From contig ONDR01000009.1 of NCBI GenBank assembly GCA_900316675.1, positions 1 to 64,000 of the forward strand: a stretch of 64,000 nt of DNA, read 5' to 3'. The stretch is from an uncultured Bacteroidales bacterium. GTDB taxonomy: Bacteria; Bacteroidota; Bacteroidia; Bacteroidales; UBA932. The notes under the pieces were generated by a model that worked only from the letters and a program-made list of their open reading frames with translations, was not told the DNA's origin and did no database searches. The position numbers and the translations under genes were made by a program. Position 1 is the stretch's first letter. Every line of letters starts with the position of its first letter. Positions 6,645 through 8,343 of this stretch are shown piece by piece.

Positions 6645-6715
6645 AGGTGCGAAGCGGAATCGAACCGCTGTAGCAGGTTTTGCAGACCTGTGCCTAACCG
6701 CTCGGCCATCGCACC
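6645..6715 (-). tRNA. tRNA-Cys (GCA)
   Basis: A 71-nt tRNA. The seven-base acceptor stem pairs 6709-6715 with 6646-6652. The anticodon loop reads CTGCAAA, giving anticodon GCA for cysteine. The T-arm carries GGTTCGATTCC and the discriminator is U, as expected for tRNA-Cys. The CCA end is not encoded. It has its own promoter 12 bases upstream. Confidence 0.95.
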
Positions 6716-6757: not shown

Positions 6758-7053
6758 TCCAATTTTATAAAAATAATAAAGTACAGCATACTCTTTCTAT
6801 AAAAAGAAAATGAGGTTGAAGATGTTGTTCGTAAGAAGTAAAAATTCTTAAAAATTTTTCATTACGAAGTGAAAGCAAATAAATATTATAAAATCGTTTT
6901 AGTGTAAGGAATTGATTTTATAGTAACGTTTTATATTAAGGAACACCCCCTTATTTTAATCGTTTTAGGATGAATTTAACTGTTCCTAATTTCCTGCTAA
7001 TTAATCAATTATACTGAAATTATGATTTTTATAAAAAATTCAATTGTAAAATT
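6758..7053. other. AT-rich spacer without a gene
   Basis: About 300 AT-rich bases separate the divergent promoters of tRNA-Cys and the small RNA. I see no credible ORF. A TTCGTAA/TTACGAA inverted repeat lies near 6820-6860, and two similar ATCGTTTTAG segments occur near 6890 and 6960. Neither has an assigned role. Confidence 0.6.
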
Positions 7054-7083
7054 TTGGATTTAAAAAATTAAGACTTACCTTTG
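7054..7083 (+). promoter_or_regulatory. Promoter of the candidate small RNA
   Basis: TTG at 7054-7056, a 19-base spacer, and TACCTTTG at 7076-7083 match the Bacteroidota promoter consensus fully. No protein start follows within reach, and the transcript would end at the terminator at 7201-7236. This identifies a non-coding transcription unit. Confidence 0.82.
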
Positions 7084-7088
7084 CAATA

Positions 7089-7236
7089 GAGTTGATGGGG
7101 TAGTGATTCCTTGTGACTCTTTGGTTATTAGTTTTAGTGTTATTAATTATGTGGTTTAGCAAGCGTGTTCGCACGTGAGTGTCAATTGCTTGCAAGGATG
7201 GAGCTGAGCCTTTAAAAGGGTCGGCTCTTTTCTTTT
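7089..7236 (+). ncRNA. Candidate small RNA, possibly 6S-like
   Basis: A transcription unit of about 148 nt defined by a strong promoter upstream and an intrinsic terminator at its end. It has no ORF of note. A rod-like fold is possible: CCTTG at 7109-7113 can pair with CAAGG at 7193-7197, GCAAGC at 7159-7164 with GCTTGC at 7188-7193 (these last two pairings compete for one base), and a small UUCG hairpin lies at 7164-7175. A long AU-rich internal region remains unpaired. Size and shape recall 6S RNA, the RNA polymerase-binding regulator, or the Bacteroidales-1 RNA motif, but no family was tested. Confidence 0.55.
7201..7236 (+). terminator. Terminator of the candidate small RNA
   Basis: A 12-bp stem with one mismatch (7201-7212 with 7216-7227) is followed by TTTCTTTT. 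The plus-strand T tract shows that it ends the small RNA rather than the convergent maf gene, whose stop lies at 7235. Confidence 0.8.
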
Positions 7237-7816
7237 ATATGAACCTTAGAAGCAGCTCATAAACCAGGTGGACAGGCAGTCCCATTACCGTGTAAAACGA
7301 ACCCTCTATGGAAGGAATGCCAATATAACCGATCCATTCCTGGATACCGTAGGCTCCCGCTTTGTCGAAGGGACGGTAATTCTCTATATAATAGTCAATT
7401 TCCTGGTCGGACAGGGAAGTAAAAGTCACTTTGGCAGTGTCTGATGCCGTTTCCATGCGCTTAGAGTCACGGACGCAGATGCCGGTAATGACGGAATGTG
7501 TCTTGCCTGACAGGGTTTTAAGCATCTGACGGGCCTGGGCAGGGCCGGACGGCTTGCCCATGATTATGCCGTCACAAACCACAATTGTGTCGGCGGTAAT
7601 CAGTATTTCATCCTCTTTAAGTGGCCTGTGAAAGCCGTTTGACTTGCCAATGGCAAGGGAAAGCGGCAGCATCTCGGGCGGAAGGCCGGCATCGGCCATG
7701 TTCTCTACGAAACTGCTGTCGGTATCAACGACAAAATCGGTCAGCAAACCGCCCAGAAGCTCTTTTCTCCTGGGCGAATTGCTACAAAGGATAATATGCT
7801 TGCCTTTGGTATCCAT
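7235..7816 (-). CDS. maf: Maf-family nucleoside triphosphate pyrophosphatase
   Basis: A Maf/HAM1-like pyrophosphatase of 193 residues, hydrolysing dTTP/UTP or modified nucleotides to the monophosphate and thereby cleaning the nucleotide pool. The N-terminal SNSPRRKELL motif, the TADTIVV block and the KPSGPAQARQML segment are the conserved substrate- and metal-binding parts. A longer frame begins at 7858, but the ATG at 7816 overlaps the kdsC stop as TAATG and starts just before the conserved strand, so it is preferred. It is probably co-transcribed with kdsC and the DUF3467 gene. Confidence 0.9.
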   Translation of the reverse strand: MDTKGKHIILCSNSPRRKELLGGLLTDFVVDTDSSFVENMADAGLPPEMLPLSLAIGKSNGFHRPLKEDEILITADTIVVCDGIIMGKPSGPAQARQMLKTLSGKTHSVITGICVRDSKRMETASDTAKVTFTSLSDQEIDYYIENYRPFDKAGAYGIQEWIGYIGIPSIEGSFYTVMGLPVHLVYELLLRFI

Positions 7817-8343
7817 TAACCAAACAGTTTCTTGTACATGGCAGCGTCGAAGGTCCATTTGCCCTGAGCCTTCAAAACCATCTCGACGGCATTGCGTATG
7901 CAGCCCTTGCCACCGGGGTAGTCGGATACGATATCGCAGACAGCCTTGACTTCAGGGACGGCGTCGGCAGGGCACAGGGCCAGGCCGGCCATCATCAGGG
8001 GGCCTACGTCGGGAATATCGTCGCCGATAAACATAACATCCGCGGCGGAAAGGCCGTGACGGGTGCAGAAATCCTGCAAATCCTCTGTCTTGATGCGGGA
8101 TTTCATGTAAACATCCTCTTTATTGAGGCCAAGAGTGGAAAAACGTACGTTGATAGAGGTTGAACTGCCACCGGTGATTATGGCGATGGGGAAGCCCATC
8201 ATTGTGGCCATACGCACGGCAAAGCAGTCCTTGGCATCGTAGGTACGTAGAAGTTCACCGTTGATGTCGCAAAGTACGCCTCCGTTTGTAAAGACGCCGT
8301 CAATGTCAAAAGCAAAGGCTTTTATGTCTTTTGGCTCCGTCAT
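7816..8343 (-). CDS. kdsC: 3-deoxy-D-manno-octulosonate 8-phosphate phosphatase, KdsC-type HAD
   Basis: A cap-less C0-type HAD phosphatase of 175 residues. Motif I is FDIDGVFTNG with the nucleophile and acid Asp pair, motif II is ITGGSS, a Lys lies in the KSRIKTEDL helix and motif IV is IGDDIPDV. The family removes the phosphate from KDO-8-P, giving the KDO used in lipopolysaccharide inner core. The C-terminal GGKG segment is also typical of KdsC. It overlaps maf by one base. Confidence 0.9.
   Translation of the reverse strand: MTEPKDIKAFAFDIDGVFTNGGVLCDINGELLRTYDAKDCFAVRMATMMGFPIAIITGGSSTSINVRFSTLGLNKEDVYMKSRIKTEDLQDFCTRHGLSAADVMFIGDDIPDVGPLMMAGLALCPADAVPEVKAVCDIVSDYPGGKGCIRNAVEMVLKAQGKWTFDAAMYKKLFG

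Follow-up and report, generated by a model that had tools for sequence, protein, structure and literature searches.

To our knowledge, control of glycan import by FopS small RNAs has been described only within the Bacteroidaceae. In B. thetaiotaomicron, SusC translation is repressed by FopS RNAs, which pair with its start region (PMC11697453), and the GibS RNA of this species has a seed of the R1 type, as FopS does (PMC7366714). Here, a small-RNA gene was characterized in a stretch of 64,000 nucleotides from an uncultured Bacteroidales bacterium, which is referred to below as the window. With a probability of about 0.74, we propose that its product is a divergent, genus-specific, trans-acting sRNA similar to FopS and GibS, and that it is a predicted controller of SusC-type glycan importers.

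The family to which the window RNA belongs is multicopy, as is FopS (Rfam RF04319; PMC11697453), and some copies lie on phage-like contigs, a phage copy of FopS having likewise been reported (PMC11697453). Both expose an AU-rich 5′ seed that contains a related string, and both have a hairpin with a GUGA-type loop followed by a U tail, and sigma-ABfr promoters; SusC start regions are demonstrated targets of FopS and predicted targets of the window RNA. The window RNA also resembles GibS of B. thetaiotaomicron in having an unstructured, conserved 5′ seed that acts, or is predicted to act, at translation start regions, whereas GibS is a single gene with promoter motif PM2 and a second seed, R2, and acts on BT_0771 and BT_3893 instead of SusC (PMC7366714). 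Several features nevertheless separate the window RNA from FopS. The seed differs, and the Rfam FopS model does not find the window RNA; Cryptobacteroides genomes carry 1–3 copies, compared with 12–15 in Bacteroides; a structured 5′ leader or a tRNA-Cys often precedes the seed, and some copies have sigma-54 promoters, both unlike FopS; and the window copy, with its separate terminator, spans about 148 nt rather than the 65–70 nt of FopS. The Qrr sRNAs of Vibrio are paralogous RNAs with an invariant core and thereby recall the present family, some copies of which have sigma-54 promoters; however, they belong to another phylum, have other targets, and show no sequence relation to the window RNA. 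The Qrr sRNAs have also been named as paralogous sRNAs in the FopS study (PMC11697453).

The anatomy of the gene is summarized in Table 1. A first-pass annotation had described a complete small RNA gene with a promoter, no open reading frame, and a terminator, and each of these elements was recovered. The TTTG-N18-20-TAnnTTTG motif of the promoter has six exact matches across the 64 kb, whereas shuffles predict 0.86; no plus-strand ORF of at least 60 aa was found between 6451 and 7643, and the terminator hairpin with its T-rich tail would end the transcript at about 148 nt, provided that transcription starts near 7088. The proposed shape did not survive: instead of a rod with a closing stem, an internal bubble, and a UUCG hairpin, the centroid fold consists of three separate hairpins with the AU-rich stretch open between the first two, and the 3′ loop of relatives is GNRA-like. 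With the terminator included, the folded sequence is more stable than 200 of 200 shuffles (z = −4.3). The window RNA thus presents a single-stranded conserved seed followed by a hairpin, together with an extra 5′ hairpin and a separate terminator.

Table 1. Features of the small-RNA locus and neighboring genes in the window
Feature	Position	Strand	Basis or remark
Small-RNA gene	7053–7236	+	Canonical Bacteroidota promoter, no plausible ORF, terminator against maf
Bacteroidota housekeeping (sigma-ABfr type) promoter	7053–7083	+	TTTG at 7053–7056, 19-nt spacer, TACCTTTG at 7076–7083
Variable 5′ leader hairpin	7088–7120	+	Predicted fold; closing-stem covariation
Invariant AU-rich single-stranded core TTGGTTATTAGTTTTAGTGTTATTAATTATGTGGTT	7121–7156	+	Putative target-pairing seed, about nt 1–30
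3′ hairpin, GUGA (GNRA) loop and pyrimidine mismatch	7159–7193	+	Fold; covariation
Intrinsic terminator, stem GGATGGAGCTGAGCC..GGGTCGGCTCTTTTC, then T-rich tail	7194–7237	+	Fold (hairpin 7194–7234)
maf, convergent neighbor	7235–7858	−	ORF as listed; true start may be internal
tRNA-Cys(GCA)	6645–6715	−	Rfam match; opposite strand to the small RNA

Conservation in relatives, which the first-pass annotation had set as a test for the stems, proved far stronger than anticipated and was located in the unpaired core instead. In a family-wide sample searched with three mismatches allowed over 34 nt, all 19 copies of the core had none. At the same tolerance (at most three mismatches), the core was present in 11 of 11 Candidatus Cryptobacteroides genomes, whereas the 139 genomes that represented 25 other genera of the family all lacked it. 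Among 101 related genomes, the RNA was found in most of those from the same genus, with nt 7121–7156 identical in most; seven genomes of this same-genus set gave no match, and most of these are incomplete. A set of 120 loci was collected by exact core match, and the claim of invariance rests on the 101-genome and family-wide searches. The window genome carries one copy, and genomes across the genus, which come from rumen, poultry, and other gut samples, carry one to three. A core variant with a 4-nt deletion occurs behind tRNA-Cys in one of the three copies of genome G052 (L162). A synteny search around maf in other genera returned no homologue, in a comparison in which several frames were misread.

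Around this fixed core, promoters, leaders, and 3′ hairpins all vary, with strong covariation. Upstream of the core, some copies have a housekeeping promoter and a leader hairpin of 34–50 nt, and others have the housekeeping promoter directly at the core, so that transcription appears to begin at the core's GG and a leader hairpin is missing. A third type has a sigma-54 promoter (TTGGCACG-N4-TTG) with or without a leader, and in about nine copies, a tRNA-Cys lies directly before the core on the same strand. The TTG-N18-20-TAnnTTTG motif was found upstream of 61 of 77 distinct copies (0.5 in shuffles) and the sigma-54 motif in seven of the 77 upstream regions (0.02 in shuffles). Genome G052 combines three modes in its three copies, namely sigma-ABfr (L002), sigma-54 (L161:1723), and the position behind tRNA-Cys noted above. 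Two-sided changes were observed in six of seven pairs of the leader closing stem across 30 leaders (covariation 0.378 vs. 0.238 shuffled) and in all seven tested pairs of the 3′ hairpin, in which 92.5% of cells are paired (0.757 vs. 0.250 shuffled). The latter covaries around a GNRA-like loop, which is GUGA in the window. Relatives that share the subtype of the window copy (L066, L068, and L153) retain the separate terminator, and in most relatives the T tract follows the 3′ hairpin directly. The main loci are orthologous: 43 sites adjoin maf, the arrangement seen in the window, and 28 lie downstream of a tdh-like gene. At many orthologous loci, maf and then kdsC-like and DUF3467-like genes adjoin the RNA, these gene names being our reading of translated sequences. 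The element therefore appears to be mostly vertically inherited.

Given that FopS pairs at SusC start regions, the SusC leaders of Cryptobacteroides were tested for complements of the core. In the window genome, two of 11 usable leaders contain a complement of at least 10 nt, a count that is not significant alone. In an independent set of 79 SusC leaders from five other genomes, 24 contained at least 9 nt and 15 at least 10 nt, compared with 4.7 and 1.5 for shuffled cores, of which 0 of 500 reached either count. When similar leaders had been removed, 86 distinct SusC start regions remained, of which 26 (30%) had a perfect core complement of at least 9 nt, a number never reached in 1000 shuffles (mean 5.2, maximum 18). 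At this length, the reversed core matched 14% of SusC leaders, the corresponding core of g192, a sister genus within the family, 15%, and the Bacteroides FopS consensus 8%. Among control start regions, drawn from other loci of the genus and not from the same genomes throughout, the core found complements in 2.3% of other genes and in 4.5% of AT-rich other genes. In 300 of 300 trials, an order-4 Markov model generated leaders whose counts stayed below those observed, and the comparison of SusC with AT-rich leaders over 50 nt upstream gave a Fisher p of ~1e-10, with the caveat that AU-rich leaders and AU-rich seeds share vocabulary. The matches involve core nt 1–30 and cluster about 15–25 nt before the SusC start codon, which was assigned by a signal-peptide heuristic and is a source of noise. 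No clear enrichment of core complements was found in 674 start regions of non-SusC mRNAs. RNAduplex energies did not discriminate, since shuffled AU-rich cores bound SusC leaders equally well, and exact-match counts were therefore used. Separately, a 26-nt near-complement of the core was noted upstream of hpf, which encodes a ribosome hibernation factor, in genome G063 (L159, 460–488). The hpf/raiA leader was rejected as a target, since this complement is absent from readable Cryptobacteroides hpf leaders, including that of the window genome.

Pairing between the core and SusC leaders, as predicted from sequence, is thus supported statistically, and a mechanism can be outlined. Transcription would begin at or near 7088 and end at about 7236, and the exposed 36-nt core, mainly through nt 1–30, would pair with an A-rich region about 15–25 nt upstream of SusC-like start codons. 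Such pairing would block ribosome access and lower the import of particular glycans, while the 3′ hairpin would protect the RNA end. The direction of regulation is taken as repression, as with FopS. Placing the same core behind sigma-ABfr promoters, sigma-54 promoters, and tRNA-Cys read-through may allow different signals to act on one target set. However, the core is fixed over all 34–36 nt, beyond the needs of a 9-nt seed, and its 3′ part is used by almost no SusC match. Binding of a protein, putatively an RRM protein such as RbpB, is a good candidate for the reason why the whole 36-nt core is frozen.

Protein binding could also be the main function. The core would then be fixed because a conserved protein, such as an RbpB-like RRM protein, recognizes it as an RNA ligand, the RNA would serve mainly as a decoy or scaffold, and SusC complementarity would be secondary. 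Invariance of all 34–36 nt, which exceeds what a pairing seed requires, fits this reading, and RbpB is known to bind FopS through a long single-stranded motif (PMC11697453). We nevertheless consider it rather unlikely, as SusC complementarity is specific to the core when compared with shuffled, reversed, and FopS sequences.

A further reading concerns DNA rather than RNA, with the 36-bp core being primarily an attachment site for integrases of phages or mobile elements and the RNA gene being incidental. Tyrosine recombinases adjoin the core in three of three IMG/VR contigs as well as in G052 and L048, and for six of 30 copies the nearest contig end is no more than 200 nt away, compared with an expectation of 0.5. 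However, the elements that surround the core (promoter, leader stem, 3′ hairpin, and terminator) have been preserved, with covariation, and most copies occupy orthologous loci without a recombinase, which makes this primary role very unlikely. Secondary use of the core as an attachment site, as with tRNA genes, is possible in addition to the sRNA function that we favor. The recombinases near the core were located at L156 6143–7672, L157 5565–6425, L158 807–1557, L161 3183–4245, and L048 4220–5290. A pair of inverted cores brackets the recombinase together with a MATE-like transporter gene in both G052 and L048. The copies near contig ends (L004, L005, L006, L014, L028, and L029) are placed as if insertions at the core distinguished strains. 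No 38-nt core was found in annotated phages and plasmids.

A short conserved peptide is scarcely credible. One frame (..LVISFSVINYVV*) is open across the core, but every codon position is equally invariant, no start codon is conserved, copies starting at GG have none upstream, and the 4-nt deletion variant shifts the frame; this reading was rejected on these grounds. The identity first suggested for the transcript, a 6S or Bacteroidales-1 RNA, is the least probable of all: a size near 150 nt and the intergenic position agree with it, but the 6S, 6S-Flavo, and Bacteroidales-1 models gave no match in 6800–7500 even at E up to 10, the 6S model found nothing anywhere in the genome, the fold is not a rod, and the RNA is multicopy with an invariant single-stranded core.

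Across the whole window at the gathering threshold, Rfam reported nothing except tRNA-Cys. The FopS model (RF04319) did not report the window RNA at the gathering threshold or at E up to 10, and the RNA is therefore not filed under this family. A link to FopS was nonetheless obtained from the opposite direction. A model built from the core and hairpin of the window RNA family (model R1) found homologues in g192 with E values of 2e-5 to 2e-3 (L239 1513–1580, L238 843–909, and L240 1458–1523). All three g192 copies inspected are preceded by sigma-54 promoters and contain GGTTTTTAGTTTTAGGTTATTAGTTTG, or a sequence close to it, as their core; sigma-54 control may thus be old in the family. Model R2 combines the model R1 set with the g192 homologues and was built without any FopS sequence. 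Of 295 genomes searched across the order, 48 contained weak matches to it, many of which are probably due to chance, and several of which have the same architecture. In genome G100, from another family, the sole reported match of model R2 is a copy called FopS by Rfam. At this locus (L284), Rfam RF04319 scores three FopS copies at 66–78 bits, and model R2 matches all three at 24–34 bits. The seed strings compared were GGUAUUAGAUUUAAGGUUAAUAA for FopS, GGUUUUUAGUUUUAGGUUAUUAGUU for g192, and GGUUAUUAGUUUUAGUGUUAUUAAUU for the window, and the window core resembles the R1/R1′ seed of FopS in part. L297 provides a bridge sequence at 38 bits, below threshold. Convergence on the same targets could contribute to the similarity with FopS.

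The window RNA is best read as a regulator of the FopS kind that occurs in a new lineage and has a new seed, with structured leaders and sigma-54 promoters among its copies. In the literature examined, neither structured leaders nor sigma-54 promoters were reported for FopS, and a partial literature search found no published description of the core RNA in Cryptobacteroides. The same design in uncultured Cryptobacteroides, combined with a different genus-frozen seed that measurably matches the SusC leaders of this genus, suggests that RNA control of polysaccharide use is old and widespread in Bacteroidales. Comparison of genera makes seed–target coevolution testable, and sigma-54 promoters on some copies would connect glycan import with signals of another class. 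As a tentative extension, which we hold to be possible rather than probable, FopS may be one branch of an order-wide Bacteroidales sRNA superfamily. Its seeds would differ from genus to genus yet be frozen within each, since a single stretch would have to pair with dozens of SusC leaders, bind an RNA chaperone, and also serve as a phage attachment site, and copies would switch among housekeeping, sigma-54, and tRNA-linked transcription.

Two further structural observations were made. In many copies, as well as in other families (for example L274 and L285), a C.C or U.C pyrimidine mismatch lies immediately beneath the apical stem of the 3′ hairpin. Additionally, four loci from families f64 and f74 (L273, L274, L276, and L277, near 1501–1575), which gave no match at Rfam thresholds, share GTTAGTAGTTGTAAATGTTAGTAATGTG followed by a GUGA or GGGA hairpin with a C.C mismatch and possibly represent another branch.
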